Shown: positions 1,569-32,000 of the stretch, one piece after another
How the letters are laid out: the number at the start of each line of letters is the position of its first letter
Numbering within the stretch: position 1 is the stretch's first letter
Assembly (NCBI GenBank): GCA_023140175.1
Contig: JAGLMD010000054.1
Span: forward strand, 1-51,121
Source: Nanobdellota archaeon
GTDB lineage: Archaea > Nanobdellota > Nanobdellia > Woesearchaeales > WJIZ01
DNA: 51,121 nt
Direction of reading: 5' to 3'
Translations under genes and position numbers: made by a program
Notes under the pieces: model-generated
What the model saw: the letters and a program-made list of their open reading frames with translations, nothing else
Databases searched by the model: none
What the model was told of the DNA's origin: nothing

Positions 1569-1671
1569 GAAAAAGATGGTAAAGTGTTTAAGTTTTAGTG
1601 TGCTTTATCGACTATAACTTTATGTTTTAAGATAGCCAAAAAATAAAAAACTATATGAGGTGCGTAAAAGC

Positions 1672-9377: not shown

Positions 9378-10676
9378 ATGGAAATAAAAAAGATTAAGGC
9401 AAGGGAGATTTTAGATTCTCGAGGAAATCCTACTGTTGAGGTGGACCTTTATACTGAAGAAGCTAGATTTGTGGCAGCTGTTCCGAGTGGAGCATCTACT
9501 GGGGTGCATGAGGCTTTAGAGCTTAGAGACGGTGATAAATCAAGATATATGGGCAAGGGAGTTCTAAAGGCTGTTGCAAATATCAATGAGAAAATATCTA
9601 AGATTGTTGCCGGGATGGATTGCACAAAGCAAGAAGATATTGACAAGGCAATGATTGAGGCAGATGGCACAGAGAATAAAAGTAATTTCGGGGCTAATGC
9701 TATCCTGGCTGTTTCTATGGCTGTATGCAAGGCTGGTTCATTCTCAAAGAGAGTTCCTTTATACAAGCACATTGCAGATCTTGCTGGAGTAGATGAATTT
9801 GTTTTGCCTGTTCCTTCGTTTAATGTAATCAATGGAGGGAGCCATGCTGGAAATAAATTAGCTATGCAGGAATTTATGATCTTGCCTGTTGGGGCCAGCA
9901 GCTTTAGGGAAGCTATGAGAATGGGTTCTGAAGTATATCATAATCTGAAGAAAGTGATTAAAGCAAAATATGGGCAGGATGCTGTTAATGTTGGAGATGA
10001 AGGGGGGTTTGCACCAAATATTCAGGATAATAAAGAAGGATTAGAGTTGTTGAAAGAAGCGATTTCTAAGGCGGGGTATGATGACAAGGTGAAGATTGGC
10101 ATGGATGCGGCTGCTTCTGAATTTTTTAAGGATGGAAAATATGATCTAGACTTTAAGAATCCTGATAATGATGGAAGTAGTGTAAAGAGTGGAGATGAGA
10201 TGATCGAATTGTATAAAGAGTTTATCGACGAGTATGGCCTTGTTTCTATTGAGGATCCTTTTGACCAGGATGATTGGGAAAATTATTCTAAACTGACATC
10301 CGAGGTTGGCAAGGGAGTACAGATAGTCGGAGATGATTTACTTGTTACCAATCCAAAAAGGATAAAGACCGGAATAGAGAAGAATGCTGTAAATGCTTTG
10401 CTTCTTAAAGTCAATCAGATTGGGAGTGTGACAGAAAGCATACAGGCATGCAAGATGGCTCAAGATGCTGGATGGGGTGTTATGGTAAGTCATAGAAGCG
10501 GAGAAACAGAGGATACTTTTATTGCTGATTTAGTTGTTGGACTGAAAACAGGACAGATAAAAACAGGAGCGCCGTGCAGAAGCGAGAGATTAGCAAAATA
10601 TAACCAGCTTATGAGGATTGAGGAAGAGTTAGAGGGAAATTGCAGATATGCTGGTGAAGGGTTTAGGAAGGGATGA
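9378..10676 (+). CDS. eno: Enolase (2-phosphoglycerate dehydratase)
   Basis: The 432-residue enzyme converts 2-phosphoglycerate to phosphoenolpyruvate. All core motifs are present: [17 protein letters not shown] at the N-terminus, the mobile loop [45 protein letters not shown] (metal ligands), the catalytic lysine in [10 protein letters not shown], and [15 protein letters not shown]. Length is standard. It is cytoplasmic and monocistronic with its own promoter. Together with the phosphoglycerate mutase at 39684 it covers lower glycolysis. Confidence 0.97.
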
Positions 10677-10742
10677 GAAAGTGATATTCTATTATGTGCG
10701 GAGCACTATTAAGTTAAAGAATAAAGGGGTAAAAACAAATAA

Positions 10743-10988
10743 TTAGAGCATACTTCTATTATTAAATGTAATTATGAAGCTGCAAGAGAAGAATGGCAAG
10801 GTGCTCTTTTTACTTGGCATTATAGGGATACACGAGAGAGAATTGTATATGAACTTCATATGGGACTTACATTTGCAGGAATGTGTCAGAGACTTTTAGA
10901 TAAACTAGAAGAGGGCACACCCCATAGCATTGATTTTGTTTGCAGAGTTCTTATCGCTTCTGCAGTGCAAACAAAACTTCTAAAATAA
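10743..10988 (+). pseudogene. Start-less 81-codon open frame, probable gene remnant
   Basis: An uninterrupted frame runs from just after a TAA (10740-10742) to TAA at 10986-10988. It has protein-like composition: YEAAREEWQGALFTWHYRDT, RIVYELHMGLTFAGMCQRL, then HSIDFVCRVLIASAV. No ATG, GTG or TTG occurs in its first 39 codons, so a full product would need a rare ATT start or is the tail of a broken gene. The family is not recognised. It lies between enolase and the toxin-antitoxin pair; the stretch 10677-11056 otherwise holds only a small GTGC-GGA-GCAC hairpin near 10696-10706. Confidence 0.35.
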
Positions 10989-11014
10989 AAGCCAAAAGAG
11001 ACGAATAAACCAAA

Positions 11015-11044
11015 ACATTTAAATGTATGACTTAATAAGTCATA
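11015..11044 (+). promoter_or_regulatory. TATA box and palindromic operator of the toxin-antitoxin operon
   Basis: ACATTTAAATGT (11015-11026) is a palindromic TATA-type box. It is followed by a perfect 19-base palindrome, TATGACTTAATAAGTCATA (11026-11044, centre A at 11035). The palindrome covers the expected transcription start region, about 20 bases before the toxin start. This is where an autorepressing antitoxin would bind; the link to the HTH protein encoded downstream is inference. Confidence 0.6.
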
Positions 11045-11062
11045 TATATAACAGATGTGCAA

Positions 11063-11392
11063 ATGAAGACACTAATAGACACAAATGAGTTTCATGACGA
11101 TGACATAAGGCTTATGAGATCTCTGAAAAAAAGAGAATCACTTGATGAATATCATGAGGTGATGAAGTGGGCATTACAAACACTTTATTTTGATGGAAAC
11201 GAATGGATTAAAATTTGTAGAATTGATAATTTCATACATGAAGGACAAAAAGGAAGCCACATTCATATTTACAAAAGAGTACAAGTGAAAAGAATTAAAC
11301 TTACTTATCAACAAGCTGAGAAATTAATAAAGAAAATTAGTGAGAGAATATTGAAAGATTATTTTAAGAAGATTATAAAATTTTATGAGTAG
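11063..11392 (+). CDS. TumE-like toxin candidate
   Basis: This is a ~109-residue soluble protein. The central part, DGNEWIKICRIDNF followed by GSHIHIYKR (residues ~50-72), resembles the 'R-x-D-x-(A/F) ... H-x-H-x-Y' core of TumE (DUF6516-type) toxins, which are encoded next to an HTH antitoxin. The basic C-terminal helix (QQAEKLIKKISERILKDYFKK) also fits. The next gene is an HVO_A0114/TumA-like HTH protein, supporting the pair. The start could be GTG 11057 or ATG 11063; the transcript seems to have a very short leader. The function rests on context and a short motif, so a different small nuclease-like or regulatory protein remains possible. Confidence 0.55.
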   Translation: MKTLIDTNEFHDDDIRLMRSLKKRESLDEYHEVMKWALQTLYFDGNEWIKICRIDNFIHEGQKGSHIHIYKRVQVKRIKLTYQQAEKLIKKISERILKDYFKKIIKFYE

Positions 11393-11404
11393 AGATTATG
11401 GTTT

Positions 11405-11423
11405 GCTCAATTCCAAGTTGAGC
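11405..11423 (+). promoter_or_regulatory. Hairpin abutting the antitoxin ribosome site
   Basis: GCTCAA (11405-11410) and TTGAGC (11418-11423) form a perfect 6-bp stem with a 7-base loop. It ends immediately before the ribosome site GGAGGT (11424-11429) of the gene at 11437. A stem touching the ribosome site could set the translation ratio between toxin and antitoxin, or mark a processing point; this is inference. Confidence 0.4.
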
Positions 11424-11436
11424 GGAGGTAGGTAAA

Positions 11437-11811
11437 ATGAATTGCGAAATTAAGATTGTGGAATCAATAAGCAAATATAATAAGGAGATTAATAGAAAAA
11501 TACATAAAGGGCTTTTAGTCAAACCTGAAAAAGGGATAATCATGACTCCTGAAATATTTAGTAAAGTGTTTAGTCCTGAAAGGATAAAACTTTTGCAAAG
11601 AATTTATAGAAATGATATTAAAAGTATTTATCAGCTTGCTAAAGATTTAGATAAGCCTTATGAAGTAGTATTTAGGAATGTGAAGTATCTTGAAGGGGTA
11701 GGATTAATTAGAATTAAGGATAAAGATAAAAAGAAGATACCCTATATTTCATGTAAGTTATCAATAGATATGTTTGCTAATGAGGGGATTGAGGCGAAAG
11801 CGAGGGTTTAA
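11437..11811 (+). CDS. Winged-helix DNA-binding protein, TumA/HVO_A0114-like antitoxin
   Basis: The 124-residue protein has a winged-helix core from about residue 42. FSPERIKLLQRIYRND and SIYQLAKDLDKPYEVVFRNVKYLEGVGLIRI give helix-turn-helix and wing, the pattern of HVO_A0114-type regulators that neighbour TumE toxins. The N-terminal 40 residues (KYNKEINRKIHKGLLVKPEKGIIM) contain the usual linker before the HTH. It has a strong ribosome site (GGAGGT, eight bases before ATG). It probably binds the palindrome at 11026 and represses the operon; that is inferred from the general behaviour of such pairs. Confidence 0.65.
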   Translation: MNCEIKIVESISKYNKEINRKIHKGLLVKPEKGIIMTPEIFSKVFSPERIKLLQRIYRNDIKSIYQLAKDLDKPYEVVFRNVKYLEGVGLIRIKDKDKKKIPYISCKLSIDMFANEGIEAKARV

Positions 11812-11845
11812 TTAAAGCCAGAAGAGATGAATAAGAAAAGAAAAG

Positions 11846-11986
11846 TTATTTTCTTTTAAGAACAAAATATAAATAATATAATGCAGTATATATTAATCCA
11901 CCAAAAAATACGAGAGCCCATTTTATTGTCATTCTTTCAATCAGAATATCAAATTTGGTTAGTATAATCCAAAGTAGAAATGCAAT
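11846..11986 (-). pseudogene. Possible remnant or start-less small membrane ORF
   Basis: On the minus strand a frame ending at TAA (11848-11846) reads IAFLLWIILTKFDILIERM and then ALVFFGGLIYTALYYLYFVLK before RK-stop, i.e. two hydrophobic segments and a basic tail. The only in-frame ATG leaves just 28 residues. It may be the tail of a broken membrane protein, or the short version may be real. The rest of 11812-12132 holds one hairpin (11995-12019) and no other gene. Confidence 0.25.
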
Positions 11987-11994
11987 GTCACATT

Positions 11995-12019
11995 CCGAGA
12001 TTTTTCGAAGAAAAATCGG
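11995..12019. other. Intergenic hairpin with GAA triloop
   Basis: GATTTTTC (11999-12006), loop GAA, GAAAAATC (12010-12017) form a perfect 8-bp stem flanked by CC and GG. It sits between the toxin-antitoxin genes and the convergent aminotransferase gene, so it may serve as a bidirectional terminator. Similar GAA/TTC-loop hairpins occur at 14470-14497 and 39486-39504. Confidence 0.5.
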
Positions 12020-12132
12020 TTTGCGACCATTATTATTTTTATTATCGACTAATATTAATACTATTTCGAAAAATTCTAAGTAATAATTATCTTATAACTG
12101 TTTATAAATGCATTATGCAATATTTTATTGTT

Positions 12133-13209
12133 TCAGTTCTCTTCCAAATATCTTCCAATTCTTTTCAGCCCTTCTTCTATTTCTTTTATGTCAAGAGCAT
12201 AACTTAATCTTATCCTGTCAGGAGCGCCAAACCAATTTCCAAGATATGTGATGACATTATACTTTTTGTAGAGATTCCAGACCGTATCTCTTGGGTTTTT
12301 TACTTTTGGGAGGACATAGAAAGCACCTTCTGGTTTCCATAAGTCGAGACCAAGATTGATTAATCCTTCATAGATGATGTCTCTTCTTTGCTTCCATATT
12401 TCTAATTGTTTTTCTATGTATGTTTTAGGAGCTTTCATTGCATTAATTGCCATGTCCTGGCCTACTAAGTTGGTGTTCATGGATGTGTGGGTTTTGATTT
12501 CTATTACTTTATTGACTATATCCATGTCATTACTCCAGAGATAGCCAACTCTGACACCACACATAGCATATGTTTTTGAGAAAGAGTTTATTGTTATGAC
12601 ATGGCTGCCCTGGATCATATAGTTTTCTCTTTCATATATGAGGTCCTTGTAAACCTCGTCTGAAACAACATAGATTCCCAGGTCTTTTGTTATCTTTTCA
12701 ATCTCTTTCAGGGTTTTTATGGATTCAACTCTTCCTGTGGGGTTGGAGGGTGAGTTGATTAAGGCGGCTTTGCAATCCTGCACTTTTTCTGTGAAATCAT
12801 CTATGTCAATCCTTCCTTTATTTAGTTCTGTGTAAACAGGTTCCATACCAGAAAATTTCAATATTTCAGGGTAGGAATAGTAATATGGCTTAGGCAGCAA
12901 TACTTTGCCTTTGTCCATTGCTCTAAAAATTAAATCGAGCGCTTCTGAAGCACCATTAGTTATGACAAAATTTTCAGCTGCTGAAGCCGGATATTCTTTT
13001 GAAAGTGAATCTCTTAATTTAGGTTCTCCCTGTATAAGGCCATATCTTAGATCTGATCTTATGTTTATGCCTTCAATGGCTTCTTTTGGTGGGGGTAAAT
13101 CGGGCTGGCCTGAGCCAAAGCTGATTATGCCGTTCCCTTGTTTTCCTATGAATACTGCGGGGCTTTTTAGTTCTGAAATATTGTTCATGAGCATTACCTT
13201 GGAGTTCAT
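12133..13209 (-). CDS. Class I/II PLP-dependent aminotransferase
   Basis: The 358-residue fold-type I enzyme has FGSGQPDLPPP near the N-terminus, the ITNGASEALDLIFRA phosphate-binding region, LINSPSNPTGRV, VVSDEVYKDLIY, the PLP-lysine motif INSFSKTYAMCGVRVGYLW, and an arginine in GAPDRIRLSYA that binds the substrate carboxylate. This is the aspartate/aromatic aminotransferase group; the amino donor cannot be told from sequence. Three in-frame ATGs occur in the first eight codons (13209, 13194, 13188). TATA-like sequences lie at about 13212-13221 and 13235-13245, so a leaderless start at any of these is possible. It is monocistronic. Confidence 0.85.
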   Translation of the reverse strand: MNSKVMLMNNISELKSPAVFIGKQGNGIISFGSGQPDLPPPKEAIEGINIRSDLRYGLIQGEPKLRDSLSKEYPASAAENFVITNGASEALDLIFRAMDKGKVLLPKPYYYSYPEILKFSGMEPVYTELNKGRIDIDDFTEKVQDCKAALINSPSNPTGRVESIKTLKEIEKITKDLGIYVVSDEVYKDLIYERENYMIQGSHVITINSFSKTYAMCGVRVGYLWSNDMDIVNKVIEIKTHTSMNTNLVGQDMAINAMKAPKTYIEKQLEIWKQRRDIIYEGLINLGLDLWKPEGAFYVLPKVKNPRDTVWNLYKKYNVITYLGNWFGAPDRIRLSYALDIKEIEEGLKRIGRYLEEN

Positions 13210-15433: not shown

Positions 15434-15591
15434 TGTAATAACCTCCTAGAAATTATTGGAGTTTTTTGGGGGTGTGCTGGGTAAGAGCAAGGTGATAAAA
15501 TAGCCATATTTCTTAATAAATTTTCATATCTACAAAACAAAAACAAACATTTATAAATTATCTAACATAATTTCACTAAAAACTGAAATTT

Positions 15592-16095
15592 ATGAATAAT
15601 ATGGCAAAAGACCTAAAAAAAGTTGAGAAGACATTTATTGACAGGACAGGCAAAATCTCAAAGCAATGGGGATTGGGAGAGCCCGCAGGCAGGGTATGGG
15701 CTACCCTTCTGTTTGCGGATGCGCCCCTTTCACAAAGACAAATAGCTGAAAAAACAGAGTATAGCTTAAGTTTGGTCAGCCCGAGCCTGAAAATTCTTGA
15801 GAAATTAAATATGGTGAGGTCTATTAGGGGAAAAGGTAAGGAAAAATTGCACGAACTTGCATTATCATTTGTTGATGCATTTAATGAATTAATTAGAAGA
15901 TTCTTGGAGCAGGATGTTAAGCCTTTGATTGAGCAATTAGAGGATGTAGATGAGATTCACAATATCGAGAAAAAAAAGAAATTAATAAAATTAGTTAAGG
16001 AATACAGAAATTTAGAAATGTATCTTGGCTTATTCAACAAACTGATGACAGCAAAAAAGACAACAGCAGAAAGAATTGGCAGATTAATGGGATAA
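15592..16095 (+). CDS. GbsR/MarR-like winged-helix regulator
   Basis: The 167-residue protein starts with a helical segment. The winged helix follows near residues 25-85: GRVWATLLFADAPLSQRQIAEKT, YSLSLVSPSLKILEKLNMVRSIRGKGKE. A C-terminal dimerisation helix pair comes next. The pattern is that of GbsR/MJ1563-type regulators, which often control membrane or lipid-related operons. A TATA box (ATTTATAAAT, about 15548-15557) gives a leader of only a few to twenty bases. A second in-frame ATG is at 15601. It heads the operon that runs to 23847, and 57 bases separate it from the next gene. It probably regulates this operon; the ligand is unknown. Confidence 0.75.
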   Translation: MNNMAKDLKKVEKTFIDRTGKISKQWGLGEPAGRVWATLLFADAPLSQRQIAEKTEYSLSLVSPSLKILEKLNMVRSIRGKGKEKLHELALSFVDAFNELIRRFLEQDVKPLIEQLEDVDEIHNIEKKKKLIKLVKEYRNLEMYLGLFNKLMTAKKTTAERIGRLMG

Positions 16096-16152
16096 TTATT
16101 TTTAGCTTTGATATTTCATAAAAAACTGAAAGAAGTTAAAAATGTGATTTAA

Positions 16153-18303
16153 ATGACTACAATATTTTATTCAGTAGGTGGAGAAGGCATGGGACATGCT
16201 ACGCGCAGTGAGGTAGTTATTCGGCATTTGTTATTACAAGGCCATAACCTGATCATATTCTCATATGAACGGGCATTTGATTACCTTAAAGAGAGTTTTA
16301 AAACAGAGAAAAATATTCTGGAACTTGTAAAGATAACGGGAATAAACTTTGTTCATGAAAAAAATAAATTTGAACTAGGAAAAACGATTATTAAAGAATC
16401 AAAAAAAATACACGGTCTTCTTATTAAAAACCTTTTTATTTTTTTAGATAGGATTTTAAAATACAAACCATCTCTAATTATAACTGATTTCGAGCCTTTG
16501 TCGGGTAACATAGCAAGACTGCTAAAGATCCCCCTCATCTGTATAGATAATATAAGTTTTATTACAAAATGCCAAATAGATAATAAATTTAAAAATTCGA
16601 TTGACTGGAAATTTAATGAGCAGATTATTAAAAACTTTGATGGAAACTGCAATTTTATCACAACAGTTTTCGATGCGCCTTTAAAAGAAAAATACAAGAA
16701 TAAAACATATCTTGTCGGCCCAATAATCAGGGAATGTTTTAACAATGCAGAAGAAAAAGAGAAGAATTTTGTATTGGTATATCAAACATCCAAATCTAAT
16801 AATAAATTATCCGGCATATTAAAGCAATCTGATGAAAAATATATTGTTTATGGCTTTAACAAAGATTGTATTGACAAAAACCTGACATTCAAAAAACAAA
16901 GCAGAGATGGGTTTGCAAGAGATTTGATTTCCTGTAAAGCAATTATAACAAATGGGGGATTTACATTGATTAGTGAGGCTGTGATATTAAAAAAGCCGAT
17001 TTATTCAATACCGATAAAGCGGCAAATTGAACAGGAAATGAATGGATATTACATAGCTAAGTCTGGCTTTGGCACTTGTTCAAAGGAGATAAATAAGGGA
17101 GACTTAAATGAGTTTTTGGATAATTTAGGTGAATATCGAAAAAATTTGTCAAGACTGAGATATAATAAAAATGAATTATTCAGCCTATTAGACAAAAAAG
17201 TGAATCATCTTGCTAATTCTTACATAGAGCCTACAAGATTGAGAATGATGATTAAAATCAAGAAGATTTATGATTCCCTTATCCGGCAGCCATTAAATAT
17301 CATAGGCATAAGTAAGAGAACAAAAGATTGGATTGCTTCTGATTTATACCTGGCGACAAAGGCCTATTTGATATCCAAATTGTCTATTAAATCCAAAAAG
17401 CATGAAAGATGCCAAAGCGATGGTATGGACGAGATCCTAGATCTTGATATAATTGAAAAAAACTTAGTCTTGAATAGCAATGAGCGAATATCCTATGGCT
17501 TATATAAATCGCATTTTAAGTCAGATAAATGTTTTAACCTGTTATTTCTCCATGGGCTTGGCGGAAATAAATCGGTTTTTATTGATTTGATGCTTAAAAT
17601 ACTGGAAATTTCAAAAGAAAAGATAAATTTTAGGATCCTTATGGTAGACTTGGCCGGCCATGGAAAATCAACGAATTTTAAATCACTGGAAAAATACAAT
17701 TTTCTGAGCCAAAGCAGGTTTATCCGGAAGATAGTTGATAAAGAGTTTGAAAAGTGCTCAGAAATAAATCTGGCAGGGCATTGTTTTGGGTCATTTATTG
17801 CAATTAAATTGACAACCCTGCTCAAAGAAAGAGTTAAACATCTGTTTCTAATATCCTCTAATCCATTTTCTCCAAAATCCAAGAAAATTAATTTTGGGTT
17901 GATAAGGAATAAAGTTATGCAAAAGTCATTGAAGTTACTTTTCAAAAAGGTAAAATTACCTAAAAATCTTATAAATTATGATTATAAAGCATACCAAAAA
18001 TCAGCAGACTATAATATGAGAAGGATATTTGTAGACATAAAGAACACTTCCTTAAAGGGATACTTTGCATCATTGTATTACTTGTCATTTGATTCAATTT
18101 ATGATGATTTCCAAAAATTATTGCATCAGAAAACAAAAATAATTATGATCCATGGGAAAAAGGATAGGGTATTTCCATACAAGGAGATTGAAGAGAAAGC
18201 AAAGAAGGGAGATGTAAAGTTGGTTATGCTGCCAGAATCAAATCATTTACCTGTATTAAATTCAAGCGGGAAATTAGCTGAGATTATTCTGGGGGAATTA
18301 TAA
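16153..18303 (+). CDS. Glycosyltransferase (MJ1255-like) fused to alpha/beta hydrolase
   Basis: This is a 716-residue fusion. Residues 1-~340 look like a GT-B glycosyltransferase of the MJ1255 type: FYSVGGEGMGHATRSEVVIRHL at the start, LIITDFEPLSGNIARL, and the sugar-nucleotide end ITNGGFTLISEAVILKKPI with IEQEMNGYYI. From ~455 on there is an alpha/beta hydrolase: LLFLHGLGGNK (oxyanion loop), VDLAGHGKS, then AGHCFGSF with C544 at the nucleophile position, D671 in HGKKDRVF and H698 in SNHLP. So the nucleophile is Cys, not Ser. Both halves are cytoplasmic, with no membrane segment. The fusion suggests transfer of sugar to a lipid and acyl or thioester chemistry on the same product; this is inference from the RND and lipocalin neighbours. 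Confidence 0.75.
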   Translation: MTTIFYSVGGEGMGHATRSEVVIRHLLLQGHNLIIFSYERAFDYLKESFKTEKNILELVKITGINFVHEKNKFELGKTIIKESKKIHGLLIKNLFIFLDRILKYKPSLIITDFEPLSGNIARLLKIPLICIDNISFITKCQIDNKFKNSIDWKFNEQIIKNFDGNCNFITTVFDAPLKEKYKNKTYLVGPIIRECFNNAEEKEKNFVLVYQTSKSNNKLSGILKQSDEKYIVYGFNKDCIDKNLTFKKQSRDGFARDLISCKAIITNGGFTLISEAVILKKPIYSIPIKRQIEQEMNGYYIAKSGFGTCSKEINKGDLNEFLDNLGEYRKNLSRLRYNKNELFSLLDKKVNHLANSYIEPTRLRMMIKIKKIYDSLIRQPLNIIGISKRTKDWIASDLYLATKAYLISKLSIKSKKHERCQSDGMDEILDLDIIEKNLVLNSNERISYGLYKSHFKSDKCFNLLFLHGLGGNKSVFIDLMLKILEISKEKINFRILMVDLAGHGKSTNFKSLEKYNFLSQSRFIRKIVDKEFEKCSEINLAGHCFGSFIAIKLTTLLKERVKHLFLISSNPFSPKSKKINFGLIRNKVMQKSLKLLFKKVKLPKNLINYDYKAYQKSADYNMRRIFVDIKNTSLKGYFASLYYLSFDSIYDDFQKLLHQKTKIIMIHGKKDRVFPYKEIEEKAKKGDVKLVMLPESNHLPVLNSSGKLAEIILGEL

Positions 18304-18304
18304 A

Positions 18305-19399
18305 ATGAAAAGAATAAAATTTCCGCAGGATGAACTAGCACATGATAATATAATAGAATGGTGGTATTTTAACGGCCATTTGAAAGATAAAAAAGGAAAC
18401 AGATATGCTTTCATGAATTGCTTGTTCAAAGTGGATGTTAAAAAAGTAAAAATGCCTTTTCTGAGGAAATTTCCATTTAAAACACTCTATTTTTCACATT
18501 CAATTCTTTCAGATATAAAAGCCAAGAGATTTCTTCCTAAGGTAGATTACATATCTATAATTTCAAAAGACAGTTTCTCAAAGCCATTGCTTTTTATTAA
18601 TTATACGGGTCCATTGATTTTTAAGGATTATCTGAATAGAGTAATAGAAAAGACAAGCAAATCAAAATACCATATAAAGACAGGTAAGTTTGATTTAACC
18701 TTGACTTCAATCAAAAAGCCATTATTAGAAGGAGGCACTGGTTATATCCATCTTGATTCAAAAAAGAGTTATTATTATTCTTTAACAAACCTAAAAACAG
18801 AAGGCACTATTAAAATTGATGGCAAGCTGATAGAAGTAAAAGGCAAATCATGGATGGATCACCAATGGGCAGATGAGAGTTATAGCGCTAAAGACAAATG
18901 GACATGGTTTTCAATACAGCTGGATAATAATACAGAAATAGTGTGTTTTGAGTATATGGAGAAAAAGAAAAAAACATACTTAGCAACAATTTCTTATCCG
19001 AATAACAAACAGGTTTCAGTGAATGATGTTAAACTAACATATACTGGCACAGCTTGGCAGAGCCCTGCAACAAAAGCAAAATATCCTTTATCCTGGAGAA
19101 TTGAAATCCCTTCTGAAAATATCAGTTTAGAAGCAGAGCCTTTGCTAAAAAAACAGGAGATGCTGTTTGGCACAATAAACTATTGGGAGGGACCTTTAAC
19201 AATAAGTGGAATTATTAACAAGAGGAGGGTCAAGGGAGCCGGATTTCTAGAGTTGGTTGGTTATCCGATGAAGATGTCTAATATGGGACTTTATAAAAAA
19301 AGAATAGGAAAAATGATTGCAGAATCAATGTCTACTGCCAAGATTAAAGGAACACAATTTGTTAGAAGTATAATAAAAAATAAATCAGGAAGTGAATAA
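18305..19399 (+). CDS. AttH/CrtC-like lipocalin-fold protein
   Basis: The 364-residue protein begins FPQDELAHDNIIEWWYFNGHL, the WWYF signature of the AttH / carotenoid 1,2-hydratase (CrtC) superfamily. It also has the family's GKSWMDHQWAD motif near residues 180-190. The fold is a double lipocalin barrel binding hydrophobic molecules. CrtC hydrates carotenoid double bonds; AttH proteins have no firm function. No signal peptide is visible. It starts one base after the preceding stop, with GGGGGA as ribosome site, so expression is coupled to the glycosyltransferase-hydrolase. The context suggests an isoprenoid or lipid substrate. Confidence 0.75.
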   Translation: MKRIKFPQDELAHDNIIEWWYFNGHLKDKKGNRYAFMNCLFKVDVKKVKMPFLRKFPFKTLYFSHSILSDIKAKRFLPKVDYISIISKDSFSKPLLFINYTGPLIFKDYLNRVIEKTSKSKYHIKTGKFDLTLTSIKKPLLEGGTGYIHLDSKKSYYYSLTNLKTEGTIKIDGKLIEVKGKSWMDHQWADESYSAKDKWTWFSIQLDNNTEIVCFEYMEKKKKTYLATISYPNNKQVSVNDVKLTYTGTAWQSPATKAKYPLSWRIEIPSENISLEAEPLLKKQEMLFGTINYWEGPLTISGIINKRRVKGAGFLELVGYPMKMSNMGLYKKRIGKMIAESMSTAKIKGTQFVRSIIKNKSGSE

Positions 19400-19401
19400 G
19401 G

Positions 19402-19584
19402 ATGGAATTACCATATGCAGTATTGGCTGTTACTATCGGAATGCTGGCTGCAATAGCCTATTCCTTAAGAGTTTTGATATTAATGGAAAAAAGAATTGCC
19501 AGAATGGAAATGCATATTGAAAATCTTCTGGAGAGAGTAATGAAGAAAGAAAGGAAAATAGAAGAAAAGGTCAGCAAAAAATGA
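19402..19584 (+). CDS. Small membrane protein with coiled-coil tail
   Basis: The 60-residue protein has one N-terminal transmembrane helix (YAVLAVTIGMLAAIAYSLRVLIL). A charged coiled-coil tail follows (EKRIARMEMHIENLLERVMKKERKIEEKV). No family is recognised. It starts two bases after the AttH-like gene and its stop overlaps the start of the next gene, so it is firmly within the operon. It may be an adaptor that assembles the membrane components; this is inference. Confidence 0.65.
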   Translation: MELPYAVLAVTIGMLAAIAYSLRVLILMEKRIARMEMHIENLLERVMKKERKIEEKVSKK

Positions 19585-19928
19585 TAGAAAAAGCAAAAAA
19601 ATATTTTTTAGAAGCATTGAATAAAACAATACTAACAAAAGAGAATGCTAAACAGATTGTTAGGGAAATAGTTAATGAAGAGAAAGTAAGCATAGAAGTT
19701 GAACATAAGGATTTAAAGAGCATAGCAAACAAAATGGAAAAATCCAGTGAAAGGGTTACATTAGGCATAATTGCAGGAGCTTTTATTGTCGGCTCAACGT
19801 TAATCATGCAGGTTGATAATATCTATTTTCTTATCGGGGGCGTTGCTGGATTCATTACATCTGGCGTATTAGGCCTAAGGATTGCAATTTCAATAACACA
19901 CTCAGGAAAAGAGAAAAAAGAGGTTTAA
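19581..19928 (+). CDS. Stand-alone UbiB/ABC1-type C-terminal membrane domain
   Basis: The 115-residue protein has a helical charged N-terminal half, then VEHKDLKSIANKMEKSSERVTLGIIAGAFIVGSTLIM and a second helix, LIGGVAGFITSGVLGLRIAISI. This arrangement (EHKDL, S-S/N-R, two membrane helices with GxLGL) closely resembles the C-terminal end of archaeal AarF/ABC1/UbiB kinase-like proteins, which act in isoprenoid-lipid metabolism. The whole kinase-like domain is missing: no KxGQ or ATP-binding motif exists here or in adjacent frames. It overlaps the previous gene by four bases. Homology is judged by eye. Confidence 0.6.
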   Translation: MIEKAKKYFLEALNKTILTKENAKQIVREIVNEEKVSIEVEHKDLKSIANKMEKSSERVTLGIIAGAFIVGSTLIMQVDNIYFLIGGVAGFITSGVLGLRIAISITHSGKEKKEV

Positions 19929-19929
19929 T

Positions 19930-20178
19930 ATGAGATTAATTAATGGATTAAGATTTTATAGAGACTCTAATCCATTAAAATTTTTTGGAAGTATCGGCCT
20001 TTTCTTCATAATAATTGGATTTTTAATAGGTTTATGGCTTGTTTTTCTATTCCTCACAACAGGACAAGTAGGACATATCCCCGCAACTATACTTACAATG
20101 TTATTGATTACATCTGGTATCCAGATATTATGTTTTGCTTTTTTAGCTGATATGTGGAGACCTGAAATGAGGAGATAA
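19930..20178 (+). CDS. Stand-alone DPMS-type glycosyltransferase C-terminal membrane domain
   Basis: The 82-residue protein reads RDSNPLKFFGSIGLFFIIIGFLIGLWLVFLFLTTG, then GHIPATILTMLLITSGIQILCFAFLADM. This two-helix unit with 'PLK-FG-IG', 'TTG' and 'LADM' matches the membrane tail of archaeal GT2 dolichyl-phosphate-sugar synthases. The catalytic GT2 domain is absent. The gene is one base from its predecessor and its stop overlaps the first RND start (TAATG). It could be a membrane scaffold for the soluble glycosyltransferase at 16153; this is inference. Confidence 0.6.
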   Translation: MRLINGLRFYRDSNPLKFFGSIGLFFIIIGFLIGLWLVFLFLTTGQVGHIPATILTMLLITSGIQILCFAFLADMWRPEMRR

Positions 20179-21356
20179 TGGGATTTATAGAAAACGTGCT
20201 GGAAGGAGTAGCAAGGCTACAAAAGAAGTATGCTTGGCAAATATTCATTATTGTAGTTATTATTACAATTGTCCTGGGAATTGGCCTAAAAGACATCCAG
20301 CTTCAAACTGATATAACAAAGGAGATGCCCCAAGATTTGCCTATCTTTAAATTAAACAACAAAATTACCGATACTTTCGGGGGTCAGGATACAGTTATCT
20401 TATTATTTCAACTGGTTGATTCTTTAGACACAAAAGATGGAATAAATGACATCAGGCATCCTTATATTATCCAAAGCATGATGGCTTTAGAAACTGTTTT
20501 AAACAAGGAAAGTGCTGTTGATAGCGTTACTTCGGTTACACAGTATTTTAATGGCAAGCCATTTTATACACTTGGGCATGTGAAAGCAATTCTTGACTCA
20601 CAACCTTCTTCTAAAGCATTTTTCAGCAGAGATTATAAGTCAACATTTATGTATATTCAGGCTGATGTTGGATCAAGTGAAGATAAAATCATTAAGCTTG
20701 CCAAGCTTATTCAAAATGACCTTGATTCTGTTCCTGGAATTCCAGGTGTAAAAGTATCTATAACTGGGAATCCGGCTATGCGAGTAACTATTTTTACTTT
20801 GCTTAAACATGATGCTATCTTTACACTGTTTATAGCAGCACTGATTATTCTTGTTTTGTTATTTATAATGGAGAAGTCATTCACCAAAGGATTGCTTATT
20901 TTTATTCCCTTGCTTCTTGGTCTAATATGGACAATGGGGGCAATGGGTTGGCTGGGCATTCCTTTATCTATCGCTACAGTTGGCATGGGAGCCATGATTC
21001 TAGGCTTGGGAGTTGAATACGGTGTTTTTATGCTTACAAGATACAAAGAAGAAAGAGAAAAAGGAAAAAATCAGCTTGACTCATTAACTATTGCTGTTCC
21101 TGGTGTAGGCAGTGCAATATTTGGCTCAGGCCTGACTACAATCGTTGGATTTCTTGCATTGACTATTTCGTTCATGCCGATAATTCAACATCTAGGGGTT
21201 AGCCTTGCTTTAGGAATAGCTTTCTCACTTATTTCAGCAATATTCGCAGCTCCTGTAATAATTTTATTAGAGGAAGATTTCGAGTATTGGCATACTTTCC
21301 ACAAGCATAAAAGATTGTCTGTTAAGAGCGAAAATCACCAGAGGATAGGAAGATGA
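20178..21356 (+). CDS. Half-size RND superfamily transporter subunit (first half)
   Basis: The 392-residue protein has one N-terminal membrane helix (residues ~19-38). A ~170-residue extracytoplasmic domain (QTDITKEMPQDLPIFK, FGGQDTVILLFQL) comes next. Five further helices follow, including LGIPLSIATVGMGAMILGLGVEYGVFMLTRYKEE and a late pair ending APVIILLEEDF. This is half of a 12-helix RND/MMPL hydrophobe exporter. The charged residue in the fourth helix is Glu (GLGVEYG). Its stop overlaps the start of the second half by four bases, so the two probably form a heterodimer. RND proteins of this type move lipids, hopanoids or terpenoids out of the membrane. Confidence 0.85.
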   Translation: MGFIENVLEGVARLQKKYAWQIFIIVVIITIVLGIGLKDIQLQTDITKEMPQDLPIFKLNNKITDTFGGQDTVILLFQLVDSLDTKDGINDIRHPYIIQSMMALETVLNKESAVDSVTSVTQYFNGKPFYTLGHVKAILDSQPSSKAFFSRDYKSTFMYIQADVGSSEDKIIKLAKLIQNDLDSVPGIPGVKVSITGNPAMRVTIFTLLKHDAIFTLFIAALIILVLLFIMEKSFTKGLLIFIPLLLGLIWTMGAMGWLGIPLSIATVGMGAMILGLGVEYGVFMLTRYKEEREKGKNQLDSLTIAVPGVGSAIFGSGLTTIVGFLALTISFMPIIQHLGVSLALGIAFSLISAIFAAPVIILLEEDFEYWHTFHKHKRLSVKSENHQRIGR

Positions 21357-22600
21357 GTTTGAAAAAAATAATTCAGGGCTATTCCAATTTTGTATCGCAT
21401 CATCCTTATATAATTGTCTTGATGGTAATATTAGCTTTAGTTATCGCAGTTTTTGGGGCCAGAAATATCAGGATGGAAAGTATAGATTATAAGGACATAC
21501 TGCCTGATGATACTGAAGTTATGCAGACTTTAGATATAATTGGAAACGAATTTGGGGGAACAGATATGGCTATGATAGCAGTGGAGATAGCCCCTAACTA
21601 TAAAGGGTCGGATGAAATCAGGGATGTTAGAGATCCTGAGATGATAAAGTACCTATATCTGCTCACTGAAAGTATCATGTACATTGATGATGTTATTAGT
21701 GCAACAAGTGCAGGCTCAATAATAAAAACACTGAATAACGATACGTTACCAAAAACCAAAAACAAGGTGCATAAACTTGTAAGTGATAGCCCAACGTTAA
21801 GTAATTATATCAGTTCAGATTACAAAATTGCTTTAGTCAAGATAAGCCTTTCTGATGATTATGATGAAGATGAAATGTTAGCTGACCTAAACAAGGTAAT
21901 TGAGGAAGTCCCCATGCCAGTCGGAGTTAAGGCTGATGTTGCTGGACAGGAACTGGCATTGTCAGTTGTTAAGCAAAATCTTAGTTCTGATATGTTAAAA
22001 ACATCGGGAATATCTTTGATAGGTATTTTAATTGTTTTGTTTTTACTTTTTAGGTCAGTAAGATATGGATTAACACCTCTTGCTACTATTGGTGTAGGTG
22101 TTTTATGGGCTTTTGGGTTTATTGGATTTATTGGTATGGGAATGAATCCTGCTACTTCAGGAGTAATCTCTATGATAATAGGTATTGGTATCGATTTCGG
22201 GATTCAGACTGTTGTGAGATTCAGACAGGAACTTAAAAAGCAAAACCCCAATGAAGCGATTAATGTAACATTGAATGCTGTCTTTATGCCAATGGCAACA
22301 ACAACATTAGCTGCATTAATAGGTTTCCAGGCAATGTCACTTGGAGAGCTTACTGTGATGGCTGATATGGGAACAATGATGAGCTACGGCATTGCTTGCT
22401 GCTTTCTTGCTGCGATAACTATTGTTCCTGCTATTTTAGTCATAGGAGAAAGATTAACGAATAAAGAAATGAGAATTGAAGATGAAAAGAGATTACTGGA
22501 AGAGGAGAAGGAAATAGTGAGTGAGGAAAGGAAAATTTTTCATATGCTATTCAATAAGTTTCTTAAAAAGAAAAATAAGAGAAGAGGTAAGAAAAAATGA
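21353..22600 (+). CDS. Half-size RND superfamily transporter subunit (second half)
   Basis: The 415-residue protein has the same topology as its neighbour: one helix, an extracytoplasmic domain (ESIDYKDILPDDTEVMQ, EFGGTDMAMIAVEI), then five helices. The fourth-helix motif is GIGIDFGIQTVVRFRQE with an Asp, unlike the Glu of the partner. The cytoplasmic C-terminus is strongly charged (EEEKEIVSEER, KKKNKRRGKKK). The two half-transporters are clearly paralogous but diverged, as expected for a split heterodimeric pump. It overlaps both neighbours by four bases. Confidence 0.85.
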   Translation: MSLKKIIQGYSNFVSHHPYIIVLMVILALVIAVFGARNIRMESIDYKDILPDDTEVMQTLDIIGNEFGGTDMAMIAVEIAPNYKGSDEIRDVRDPEMIKYLYLLTESIMYIDDVISATSAGSIIKTLNNDTLPKTKNKVHKLVSDSPTLSNYISSDYKIALVKISLSDDYDEDEMLADLNKVIEEVPMPVGVKADVAGQELALSVVKQNLSSDMLKTSGISLIGILIVLFLLFRSVRYGLTPLATIGVGVLWAFGFIGFIGMGMNPATSGVISMIIGIGIDFGIQTVVRFRQELKKQNPNEAINVTLNAVFMPMATTTLAALIGFQAMSLGELTVMADMGTMMSYGIACCFLAAITIVPAILVIGERLTNKEMRIEDEKRLLEEEKEIVSEERKIFHMLFNKFLKKKNKRRGKKK

Positions 22601-23847
22601 AAATAAAAAATATAGTTGTAGGATTGATTGTAATGATTGTTTTGAGTATGGGAGTTTATGCAGAGTATAATAGTTATGATTACGCCACGATAGGCATAAC
22701 TTTACTCAATCAAGATCCTGATCCTGCAAATCAAGGCGAGTATCTTGATATTAGGTTTAAAGTAATCAAGAAAGGAAATGAAGTATTAGAAGATTTAACT
22801 TTCCTTTTAGATGCAAAATATCCATTCTCTTTTGATGGTGCAGATAACCCAGAAAAGGAAATTGGTAATTGGTATGGATATCCTAATAGTGATGATGAAT
22901 ACTATACACTTCATTACAAAGTAAGGGCGGCAGATGATGCACTAGAAGATATCTATAAATTAAAGCTCAAGTATCAGCATAGCAAAAGCAACGGATGGGT
23001 GTTTAATGAGTATGATATTCGTGTAGGTGATAAGAATGAGTCTGAATTCGTGTTTGGAACATTAACAACTTCTCCGACAAAACTAATTGCAGATTATGAT
23101 GAAGCTCAATTGGATGTTGAATTGGAGAATATTGGAGATGGGGATGCACAGAATGTTAAATTGGAGATTGAGCTTCCAGAAGGTTTTGAGCCTACATATA
23201 GCTATTCTGATAGAGCAAACATAGGCACTCTGGCTGCTGATAGCTCTGAAACTGCTACATTTTACGTTGATACTGCTGAAGGATTGAAAGCTGGCATTTA
23301 TGAAGCTAAATTAAATCTGGAATATAAAGAAGCTAGTGATGATGACAATGAAATTAAGTATGCTGTAATGCCTCTAAAAATTCCAATTAGTGGTATGCCT
23401 GTCTTTAGTGTTGAGAGTGTGAAAACCATTCCTGAAAAAATTAAAGAGGGAACAAATGTTCAGCTTCTAATTACAGTGAAGAATGTAGGGAGCAAGGAAG
23501 CAGAAGCTGTTTCATTAAGGGCATATAAAGAAAGCTCTCAGCCTTTTGAATTTGATGAGAAATCTGATTTTGTTGGAAAGCTGAAGCCAGGTGAAACTGG
23601 AGAGGCAGTACTAAAGTTTAGCGTGGATAAAAGTGCGACAGTAAAGACCCATATTCTGGATTTAGAGATAAGGGGAGTCTATAATGATGAGGTAATTACT
23701 GATGATGCTATTGCTACGATAAGGGTTGAGAATGGGGAGAAGAAAGGTTTATTTGGTAGTGGTGCTTCACTAATTATTGGATTAGTAATAGTATTAGTTG
23801 TTGTTGGAGTGGGGCTGTTGATTTATTTTAAGAGAAAAAGAGAATAG
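22597..23847 (+). CDS. Anchored extracellular Ig-like (COG1361/CARDB-type) protein
   Basis: The 416-residue protein has a signal peptide (residues 1-~22, cleaving near VYA). It then has three beta-sandwich domains with the CARDB/NEW3 pattern (ELENIGDGDAQNVKLEIELPEGF, ITVKNVGSKEAEAVSLRAY). A C-terminal membrane helix (ASLIIGLVIVLVVVGVGLLIYF) is followed by KRKRE, so it is anchored outside the cell. COG1361-like proteins are commonly encoded next to archaeal RND or ABC exporters and may act as a periplasmic or S-layer-facing partner. It ends the operon. Confidence 0.8.
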   Translation: MKIKNIVVGLIVMIVLSMGVYAEYNSYDYATIGITLLNQDPDPANQGEYLDIRFKVIKKGNEVLEDLTFLLDAKYPFSFDGADNPEKEIGNWYGYPNSDDEYYTLHYKVRAADDALEDIYKLKLKYQHSKSNGWVFNEYDIRVGDKNESEFVFGTLTTSPTKLIADYDEAQLDVELENIGDGDAQNVKLEIELPEGFEPTYSYSDRANIGTLAADSSETATFYVDTAEGLKAGIYEAKLNLEYKEASDDDNEIKYAVMPLKIPISGMPVFSVESVKTIPEKIKEGTNVQLLITVKNVGSKEAEAVSLRAYKESSQPFEFDEKSDFVGKLKPGETGEAVLKFSVDKSATVKTHILDLEIRGVYNDEVITDDAIATIRVENGEKKGLFGSGASLIIGLVIVLVVVGVGLLIYFKRKRE

Positions 23848-28094: not shown

Positions 28095-29012
28095 ATGAAG
28101 AAATATTTATTACTATTAGTAATGGTATTTAGTTTACCGCTTGTTTTTTCTGATGCACCTCCAGCATTACCTATGGAGATATGGGGAGAAGCAACTATAG
28201 ATGGTGGTTCTGCTTCAGATGGATTAAATGTTGAGGCTGTTATTGATGGGCAGAATTACGCTCAATATTCTGTTACCGAGGATGGTTATTATGATGTTAT
28301 TATAACTGGTTTAGACAAACCTTTGACGTATAATAATGATTCTGATTGTTCTACTCATTGGGGGAATGGAGAAGCATGTGTTCAATGCACTCAGGATGTT
28401 GATTGTGTAGAGGGACCACAGGATGAGGAGAATGTAAAGATTAGTATTGATGGAGATGATGCAGAAGAGACTTTTTCTTTGGAAAGGGGGAGTATATTGA
28501 ATGAGGATGTAACTGTTATTGTTATTGTTGTGTTTACGAAGGATTTACCAATGGGATGGAACTTGTTTTCTTTGCCATTAAATGTAGGGGCGGCTTCTTT
28601 GTCAGATGTTTTGATATCAATAAATGGAAATTATACTATTGTATGGACAATTGTTGATGGCAACTGGAAATCTTCTACTTCAAAGATATCTCCAATAACG
28701 ACAATAGAACCTGATAAGGGATACTTAATCCATATGAATGCTACTGATACTCTTGAGTTAGAAGGGACACCAGTAAATGGGACAATCATTTCCACAATAC
28801 CCATATGGAATACTGTTGGGTATCCTTCTCTTATAGATAGGTTAATAACTGGGGTCTTGGCAGGATTAGACTATGAGATTGTATGGACTCTTGTGAATGG
28901 TAATTGGAAGAGCTCTACCTCAAAGATAAATCCAATAACAATGATGCAATCAGGGTATGGATATTTGCTTTCGACTCAGGTTGGCGGTAATTATACTGTA
29001 AATAATGATTAG
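28095..29012 (+). CDS. Secreted protein with two GWN-type surface modules
   Basis: The 305-residue protein has a signal peptide (KKYLLLLVMVFSLPLVFS, cleaving before DAPP). An N-terminal beta-sandwich (residues ~25-150) carries four Cys. Two tandem ~75-residue modules follow, the first starting PMGWNLFSLPLNVGAASLSD. Each module has the order 'IVWT(I/L)V(D/N)GNWKSSTSK', 'P(D)KGYLIHMN' or 'GYGYLL', and ends in a short strand. Several N-x-T/S sequons suggest N-glycosylation. There is no C-terminal anchor. The C-terminal half is nearly identical to the end of the protein at 37382. Its stop overlaps the ribosome site of the next gene. Confidence 0.75.
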   Translation: MKKYLLLLVMVFSLPLVFSDAPPALPMEIWGEATIDGGSASDGLNVEAVIDGQNYAQYSVTEDGYYDVIITGLDKPLTYNNDSDCSTHWGNGEACVQCTQDVDCVEGPQDEENVKISIDGDDAEETFSLERGSILNEDVTVIVIVVFTKDLPMGWNLFSLPLNVGAASLSDVLISINGNYTIVWTIVDGNWKSSTSKISPITTIEPDKGYLIHMNATDTLELEGTPVNGTIISTIPIWNTVGYPSLIDRLITGVLAGLDYEIVWTLVNGNWKSSTSKINPITMMQSGYGYLLSTQVGGNYTVNND

Positions 29013-29022
29013 GTGGGGAAAA

Positions 29023-32000
29023 ATGAAAATATTTTTTAAATTAATGATGGGGTTTTTTATGTTAGTTATTCTTGTTTCTGGAGTATATGCTGGACTAAAT
29101 TTGCCTCTACAGATTGATGTCAATGCTTTTGAGGATGGAAATAATATTAATACTAATCTTAAGGTGATTGTTTATTACTACTATTATGCCGGTGATAATC
29201 TTGTAGAGGGAAGTTATAATACTATTGATGACCCAAGCACAATCGTGTTCTTTATTTATGACGGTAAATCGAATATTTTTGCAGAATTCGGACATGCTTA
29301 TGGAAACCCCATTACACTAAACATTGAGGGTTATGAAAATTATACATCATCTTCAGTTAGTAATAAGTTGGGTCCTATTGACGTAAACTTTACATTATTT
29401 TCATATCCTTTGGTTTTAGTCAATGAATTCGAATCAAATCCTGATACTGGACATGAATGGATTGAATTATACAATCCAAATAGTTATAGTGTTGATATAA
29501 CTGGCTGGGAATTATGGGATACTCTTTCAATCCCTAGTTTATTGTATACATTTCCTTCAGACACTGTGATTGATGCTTATTCATATCTTGTTTATGAATT
29601 GAGTGTTACTAAACTGAATAATGCAGGAGAAAAAGTTGTTCTCAAACATCCTTCTGGAGATGTTATAGATGAGACAGCACAGAAATCTGATGGTTCTGGG
29701 GATGATAGATGCTGGGCAAGACTGCCTAATGGAGCAGATACTGATGGTGATTCAGACTGGACTTTCCAGACATGCACTAAAGATAGAACAAATAATGATA
29801 AGGATAATGATGGTTATGATGATAAAGATGCTCCTGTAAATGGAGATGATTGCGATGATAATGATGCTTCAATACATCCAGGTGCTACAGAAACATGCAA
29901 TAATAAAGATGATGATTGCGATGATTCTGTGGATGAGGATCTGGCTCAAGGTTGTGGGGCTGGTGTTTGTGAAGGGACAGAGACATGCTCTGCTGGAGTA
30001 TGGTCTGATTGTTCAACAAAGAATAATGATGCAGGAATTTGTGCTGAATGTAATGCTGATGGGAATATAGCTTATGATGATACACAGGATAGTGATTGTG
30101 ATTCCAATGATCTTAGTGAGGTTGCTACATGTTTCTATGACCCAGATTCAATTGATGAGACTTATGATTATTATGCTGGTTTTGATTCACAATGTGCAGA
30201 TATTGATAGCTGCACCTCAGCTCCAGCAAACTGGCAGGATGATATAACCCATACATGCGACCAAAATCAATGTGGAGCTGAATGCGATTCTTCAAATCCA
30301 TGCGATGATAAATGTGTAGGAGATATATATTATTCTAACGGTGCATGCCAGGGAGATTGTACTTGTTCTTATGATACACAAAACTGTAATCTCCAGGATG
30401 ACTGGTATGATACAGACAGCACTCAATGGGTAGAAGATACCCAATGTACAGAAAAAGAACAGAAAGAGCAGGAATATAGGGATTATACCTGTGGCTTATC
30501 TGGTTGTGAATACTCTGTAATAAACACACAATGGGTTGATACAGGCTCAACAAGAAATAATCAGGATGGAACAGCATGTGATGATAGTTTATACTGTAAT
30601 GTCGGAGAAACATGCCAGTCAGGAACCTGTACTGGTGGAACAGCAAGAGATTGTTCAGGAGATGATGTCTTGGTAGACCAATGTTTCTATAATCCTGATG
30701 CAGTTGATGAAACTTATGACTATTACTCATTCACATCAAGCTGTGATGAAGGCAGTAATAGCTGCACATCAGCTCCAGCTAACTGGGAAGAGGATATAAT
30801 ACATACATGCTCTACCTCTCAATGTGGAGCTGAATGCGAGTCTGATGGAGATTGTGCTGAGAATGAATGTTCTGTAAGCTATGATGATTACTGCAATGAT
30901 AAAAAACTTGTAGAGTATGATTCTGATAAGATTAAGGATTCAACTTTAGTTGATAATAGTTGTGGCAATACTTGTGAAGGAGACTGCTCATGCACAGATT
31001 GTGCTGTAGATTGTTCTGCTCCTGCAACAAATGAATATTGTGTCAAGGATGTATGTAATGCAGAATGTAGTATAGATGCAGACTGTGATGATAGTGATTC
31101 AAGAACAACAGATACATGTAATGCAGGCTGTGTATGTGAGAATGTACAAGCTAATGAATGTCTGACAGATGCTGATTGTCTTGACAGCTTATATTGCAAT
31201 GGAGAAGAGTATTGTGATGTAGATGGATATTGCCAATCAGGACAAACAATAGATTGTTCAGCTGGTGATGTCTTGGTAGATCAATGCTTCTATAACCCTG
31301 ATGCAGTTGATGAAACTTATGACTATTATTCTTTCAGTTCAAGCTGTGATGAAACCAATGATGCATGCACATCAGCTCCAGCAAACTGGCAGGATGATAT
31401 AACACATACATGCGACCAAAATCAGTGCGGTGCTGAATGTGATTCTTCAAATCCATGCGATGATAAATGTGTAGGAGATACATATTATTCTAACGGTGCA
31501 TGCCAGGGAGATTGTGCATGTTCTTATGATACACAAAACTGTAATCTCCAGGATGACTGGTATGATACTGGCAGTACTCAATGGATAGAAGATACTCAAT
31601 GTACAGAAAAAGAACAGAAAGAACAGGAATACAGAGATTATACCTGCGGCTTGTCTGGATGTGAATATTCTGTGACAAATACACAATGGGCAGATACTGG
31701 CTCAACAAGAAATAAACAAGATGGAACAGCATGTGACGATACTTTATATTGTAATGTTGGAGAAATATGCCAGTCAGGTGCTTGCATAGGTGGAATAGCA
31801 AGAGATTGTTCAGGGGATGATGTCTTGGTAGACCAATGTTTCTATAATCCTGACAATGTTGATGAAACTTATGACTATTACTCATTCGATTCAGTCTGTG
31901 ATGAAGATAATGATGTATGCACATCAGCTCCTGCAAACTGGGAAGATGATATAACCCATGATTGCGATATCACTAATTGCGGAGCAGATTGTGAAGACAA

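Follow-up and report, generated by a model that had tools for sequence, protein, structure and literature searches.

The 51,121-nucleotide window analyzed here is one entire contig (JAGLMD010000054.1) of a Nanobdellota archaeon of the DPANN group, from the order Woesearchaeales, whose genome of 2.07 Mb is rated 100% complete. Nine genes in it, all on the + strand and lying where the initial annotation placed them, form a locus in which a MJ223/GbsR-type regulator precedes an operon encoding a glycosyltransferase-hydrolase fusion, an AttH/CrtC-superfamily protein, and a split RND pump. The regulator gene is flanked by a new pair of candidate operators, which the regulator may bind. The features are:

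15550..15557, + strand: TATA-like box (TTTATAAA) of the regulator promoter, read from the sequence
15571..15588, + strand: candidate operator 1, TTTCACTAAAAACTGAAA, 0 mismatches, 3 bp before the regulator start codon and over the expected transcription start
15592..16095, + strand: MJ223/GbsR-type winged-helix regulator, 167 amino acids, from profile matches (1ku9, E 1.7e-12)
16114..16131, + strand: candidate operator 2, TTTCATAAAAAACTGAAA, after the regulator gene and ahead of the first gene of the operon
16153..18303, + strand: MJ1255/VC2487-family glycosyltransferase fused to an alpha/beta hydrolase, TIGR00661 above cut-off
18305..19399, + strand: AttH/CrtC-superfamily double lipocalin-like protein, from Pfam domains and predicted structure
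19402..19584, + strand: 60-residue protein with a single transmembrane segment
19581..19928, + strand: 115-residue protein aligning with the C-terminal two-transmembrane tail of UbiB/AarF, without the kinase
19930..20178, + strand: 82-residue protein with two transmembrane segments, an AglJ-type C-terminal membrane tail (profile match, E 2e-14)
20178..21356, + strand: half-size HAE3/MMPL RND subunit R1, relay motif GLGVEYG (Glu)
21353..22600, + strand: half-size HAE3/MMPL RND subunit R2, relay motif GIGIDFG (Asp)
22597..23847, + strand: surface Ig-like CARDB/NEW3 protein with hydrophobic segments at the N- and C-terminus

The regulator gene is separated from the first operon gene by 57 bp, and the seven junctions that follow measure +1, +2, -4, +1, -1, -4, and -4 bp. 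The initial annotation described the last seven genes as abutting; the tight packing stands but the number does not, as all eight genes after the regulator abut. Its family assignments for the large genes were each borne out by Pfam and NCBIfam. AT content in the window is highest over the first half of the operon.

The match of the regulator to MJ223 covers profile positions 3-145 of 162, in agreement with the GbsR-likeness first proposed; MJ223 is the structural template used for GbsR (PMC6207618). The score with the CudC model was far under its cut-off, and no choline or betaine genes were found among the neighbors in all the regulator loci read. Five other genomes of the order encode orthologs with 65-76% identity.

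By comparing the flanks of the regulator genes we found TTTCANWAAAARCTGAAA, which sits on both sides of the gene and conforms to an 18 bp palindrome, TTTCA-N8-TGAAA. The window genome has only two such sites, those flanking the regulator. Across six whole genomes, the window genome and those of five relatives, each regulator locus has two sites, 11 of the 12 being perfect and one having 1 mismatch. Base composition predicts about 0.009 perfect sites per genome. Away from the locus, one-mismatch matches in the six genomes number three, a rarity similar to that of a reversed-pattern control, with one. A TATA-like box lies about 25 bp before the middle of operator 1, and the position of operator 1 over the expected transcription start suits a repressor. 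Operator 2, in the gap that separates regulator gene and operon, follows a T-rich run. Copies with at most one mismatch are also found at the regulator loci of metagenome-assembled genomes (MAGs) labeled Nanohalarchaeota and Diapherotrites and of G082, G144, and G149. At more distant regulators the palindrome is shifted to TTTTA-N8-TAAAA, so that site and regulator appear to change together. We also looked for the sites in viral contigs; the 25 matches were all single, with no pairs, and we read them as chance.

Seven other genomes of the order have a radical SAM gene of one and the same family after the regulator. The regulator is followed by radical SAM in G060, G144, G149, and G082. In G018 the order is regulator, radical SAM/SPASM, a 43-residue membrane peptide, patatin, a 145-residue protein, a copy of the 82-residue protein, and AttH. 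The G038 cluster runs from the regulator through radical SAM, the 43-residue peptide, patatin, AttH, and CARDB to a LolE-like permease at the contig end. That of G268 codes for the regulator, the 43-residue peptide with an in-frame stop, radical SAM, UbiB with its kinase, a phasin, patatin, the 145-residue protein, R1, R2, and CARDB. The regulator, the 43-residue peptide, patatin, and CARDB are encoded in G045, where the contig ends. The glycosyltransferase is not in these sister loci. In the G018 cluster, tyrosine recombinase/integrase-like genes lie directly after AttH (L114:15160-17321), a hint of mobility.

The conserved single-transmembrane 43-residue micropeptide (MAITENLPAFAANPWFIGGAVVVVLAIIGGVLWWLSKEGKLPF; L106:6091-6219, L114:11985-12113, L009:11068-11196, and L113:12893-13024) is present in four sister clusters and is so short that annotation usually passes it over; we found none in the window. 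A one-transmembrane protein of 136-145 residues, marked by a CxxC motif and the stretch YWCGIKHKKY, is conserved between two clusters (L113:8124-8534 and L114:12944-13381) and has no Pfam or NCBIfam match.

We also examined regulator loci beyond the order. At L121, from Diapherotrites, the regulator homolog is directly followed by the tetraether synthase Tes (10667-12133; 652.8 bits, cut-off 450), then by two CrtC-fold proteins and UbiA. Tes was found only there among the loci tested. The same two CrtC-fold proteins and UbiA follow the regulator at L122, labeled Chloroflexota, which is probably a mis-binned archaeal contig. L120, labeled Planctomycetota, is likewise probably mis-binned; both it and L122 carry an archaeal-type regulator and neighbors. 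The regulator is next to a CrtC-fold protein at L118 (labeled Nanohalarchaeota), to an HpnJ-like B12 radical SAM and a CrtC-fold protein at L128 (Theionarchaea), and at L125 (Thermoplasmatales) it stands between patatin with a CmpB-like membrane protein and a full-length RND pump. The CrtC-like family near these distant regulators has a model with pLDDT 70 and a TM-score of about 0.5, and 21 of 21 significant Foldseek matches belong to the CrtC superfamily. A sequence-profile link between it and the AttH family was rejected, the comparison not being significant, and the WMDHQW motif that holds an Asp in AttH was not seen in it.

The window and L118 regulators are 62% identical while the ribosomal protein L10e of the same contigs is 39% identical, suggesting horizontal transfer. 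The initial annotation of a single regulated operon of lipid- or isoprenoid-linked families is strengthened by the regulator and its operator standing beside lipid genes in other lineages. We tentatively raise the broader idea, itself rather doubtful, of a horizontally transferable archaeal lipid-remodeling regulon. One regulator-operator pair would move between phyla with exchangeable enzymes (Tes, radical SAM, patatin, CrtC-fold, UbiA/UbiB, glycosyltransferase) and exporters, and lipid-auxotrophic DPANN archaea would use it to rework and display host-derived membrane lipids.

In the fusion protein of the window, the glycosyltransferase occupies about residues 1-350 and the alpha/beta hydrolase about 440-716. 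The former scores 199.3 to 200.9 bits with TIGR00661, the MJ1255/VC2487 glycosyltransferase model (cut-off 195.9). The nucleophile motif of the hydrolase, GHCFG, has Cys rather than Ser; stand-alone hydrolases of relatives have either. The complete fusion was found in the window only, among 99 relatives.

The AttH protein matches the CrtC N-terminal domain with 107.5 bits and Lipocalin_9 with 106.1 bits (cut-offs 22.5 and 26.2). Its AlphaFold model (pLDDT 80) has a double lipocalin-like fold matching 2ich in Foldseek (E 1.5e-21, TM-score 0.70-0.78). It is closest to the AttH protein NE1406, then to kievitone hydratase, fungal pericyclases, and 25-phosphosteroid lyase. No transmembrane stretch and no signal-peptide-like segment were found on it. 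Residues D185, W199, W201, W19, and W20 are invariant in 11 archaeal homologs. The carotenoid hydratase CrtC is reported to need D268, W110, W283, and W285 (PMC12402844), to which D185, W199, W201, and W19/W20 correspond by motif and spacing rather than by structure-based alignment.

With the hydratase Asp and Trp residues kept in a CrtC-superfamily protein, the locus could belong to a pathway for carotenoids or other C30-C40 terpenoids in which CrtC is the hydratase, but we regard this as highly improbable. Phytoene/squalene synthase (SQS_PSY) was found in none of the six regulator-bearing genomes while the same search was positive in seven control genomes, and no desaturase is nearby. The window genome, rated complete, by and large appears to lack an enzyme coupling prenyl chains to C30-C40 products. 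We therefore rejected a carotenoid pathway, and the term terpenoid in the initial annotation is not supported in the carotenoid sense; a carotenoid made by the cell itself is probably not the substrate.

Two of the three small membrane proteins resemble pieces of larger ones. The 115-residue UbiB-tail protein is closest to the UbiB of the G268 cluster, with a score of 140 versus 99 for the intact UbiB encoded elsewhere in its own genome. The 82-residue protein also exists as a stand-alone copy, encoded in the G018 cluster, with which it shares 59 of 77 residues. Besides its AglJ-type tail, matches of the small proteins to Pfam and NCBIfam families are at chance level, and s3 has only chance matches among solved structures.

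An AglJ-type tail beside a MJ1255-family glycosyltransferase above its cut-off, in a genome with a polyprenyl synthase, would fit export of a glycolipid or polyprenyl-phosphate carrier for surface glycans. The glycosyltransferase and the AglJ-tail protein would build a glycosylated polyprenol and the pump would flip it. However, the operon has no oligosaccharyltransferase or further glycan genes and the glycosyltransferase is missing from the sister loci, making this very unlikely in our view.

Both halves of the RND pump contain an MMPL domain (120 and 115.8 bits, cut-off 20.5). With TIGR00921, the model of full-length HAE3, they score 231 and 211 bits versus a cut-off of 351.9, as neither half is long enough for this model. 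The proton-relay acid of the fourth helix is Glu in six of six R1 and Asp in six of six R2 proteins examined. The heterodimeric pump of the initial annotation is upheld, with conserved partner halves. A 784-residue single-chain form is present in G005. Among solved structures, the nearest relatives of the pump include MmpL4, MmpL5, HpnN, and MmpL3. The CARDB protein is the usual pump neighbor in relatives, R1-R2-CARDB being a cassette that occurs with varied regulators and neighbors; the anchored Ig-like protein first described is recognizable as this surface CARDB/NEW3 protein.

Taken together, we lean slightly toward a modular, self-regulated locus whose products would modify isoprenoid-type membrane lipids and translocate them, where we infer the substrate, direction, and activity. 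The MJ223/GbsR-type protein would bind TTTCA-N8-TGAAA on either side of its own gene and keep that gene and the operon repressed; a lipid or membrane signal would end the repression by releasing it. A lipid would then be taken from the membrane and worked on by the AttH/CrtC-fold protein and the soluble glycosyltransferase-hydrolase. AttH would bind its isoprenoid chain and might hydrate it or act on it in some other way; the glycosyltransferase would add a sugar, and acyl groups would be moved or removed by the Cys-nucleophile domain. The two tail proteins, of UbiB and AglJ type, may be detached membrane-docking pieces. The heterodimeric pump, with one relay acid per half, would carry the product to the outer face, with the anchored CARDB protein as its likely partner there. 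In the sister loci the same regulator would head exchangeable enzymes and exporters.

Several points weigh against a lipid-modifying and translocating system. In a survey of 353 genomes of the order, AttH is encoded in 16 and the close split pump in seven, and the window genome is the only one with both. In most carriers AttH stands by itself among housekeeping genes. The window operon has neither the radical SAM nor the patatin that characterize the sister loci. The neighbors read at all the loci come from fragmented MAGs. The distant CrtC-like family would be tied to AttH by a moderate fold model only, and the putative direction of the pump, export, is taken from its bacterial relatives.

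It is also possible that chance joined two unrelated modules with no common pathway, one a cassette of AttH and regulator, the other a free-standing RND-CARDB cassette for export. No other genome belongs to both the AttH set and the RND set, so we rejected AttH-RND as a conserved pair; AttH is often solitary, and R1-R2-CARDB also occurs with other regulators and neighbors. Still, the regulator and operators that head RND-CARDB in G268 are the same as in the window, the regulator of the Thermoplasmatales MAG is followed by a full RND, the UbiB tail is common to the window and the G268 cluster, and seven junctions fall within a few bases. We consider chance joining quite unlikely. The initial annotation looked for the RND pair to be linked in a conserved way to AttH or to the glycosyltransferase; this linkage was not found, and the fusion is itself unique among the 99 relatives. 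The lack of linkage, named there as counting against one system, was seen pair by pair but not for the system as a whole, because the regulator links the AttH and pump modules.

No convincing geranylgeranylglyceryl phosphate (GGGP) synthase was found in the six regulator-bearing genomes, a search made with one Pfam model on MAGs. A weak match in the own genome was rejected as it is HisF beside HisA, read from the sequence. The lipid may thus come from a host. The own genome encodes a prenyl synthase and methylerythritol phosphate (MEP) pathway enzymes. At L159 (G000:C112), IspE-like and IspH-like sequence in a single frame, recognized from the letters themselves, lies beside a polyprenyl synthase, suggesting a bacterial-type MEP pathway. 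Another DPANN symbiont recruits host lipids selectively by a mechanism that is not known (PMC11035636).

The locus could accordingly serve acquisition and remodeling of host lipids by an archaeon without ether-lipid synthesis, where head groups or acyl chains would be trimmed by the hydrolase or a phospholipase, with AttH and the pump carrying lipids between leaflets or cells. The missing GGGP synthase, the prenyl and MEP genes, the selective recruitment in the other symbiont, and the patatins that recur in regulator loci are all in line with this. On the other side, known RND relatives export, the GGGP synthase result carries the limits given above, and a regulator of the same type heads Tes in Diapherotrites, pointing to lipid modification generally and not uptake only. 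We judge this role in acquiring and remodeling host lipids unlikely.

Elsewhere in the window, a 1584-residue protein with PKD and lamin-tail domains is followed by further large proteins, one with Ig domains (29005-33759), which suggests that another locus, for the cell surface, lies there. Positions 1660-4215 encode an S-layer-like protein.

Each protein family of the modular lipid locus is known, as is the theme of AttH plus an exporter, in bacteria with ABC transporters (PMC2954199) and here with an RND pump. The literature searched (AttH/CrtC in archaea and a Tes regulator, with partial coverage) contained no description of the regulator-operator pair, the link to Tes and lipid genes, or the exchangeable exporter module, nor of a comparable regulator of archaeal tetraether synthesis. 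By what route membrane lipids are acquired and altered in DPANN archaea is an open question (PMC11035636). The locus supplies a specific regulator and an 18-bp candidate operator, together with a few candidates for lipid enzymes and exporters, all testable in model archaea, and a bona fide tetraether synthase of another lineage is tied to the same type of switch.

Like bacterial GbsR/OpuAR, a repressor released by small ligands (PMC6207618), the window regulator is a MarR-superfamily winged-helix protein with the MJ223 fold, but lipid genes rather than betaine or choline genes adjoin regulators of its type. Bacterial NE1406 (AttH/DUF2006) has a genome context with LolD-type ABC transporters (PMC2954199). 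There too an AttH-fold protein lies beside a lipid-type exporter, as in the AttH-CARDB-LolE-like permease order of G038 and the AttH-FtsX fragment of G207. No ABC transporter is beside the window AttH, LolE-like or FtsX-like permeases being found only in those two genomes; its exporter is instead a split HAE3 RND, and a GbsR-type regulator with its own operator heads the operon. With HpnN, BstA, and MmpL3/4/5 the pump shares the MMPL/HAE3 membrane core, the conserved relay-helix acid, and sequence matches. It differs in its two half-size chains, CARDB surface partner, and archaeal host, with no hopanoid genes in the operon. No radical SAM gene, and hence no Tes, is among the operon proteins scanned; the glycosyltransferase-hydrolase fills the slot that radical SAM has in the sister loci, downstream of a regulator homologous to the one heading a bona fide Tes in Diapherotrites.

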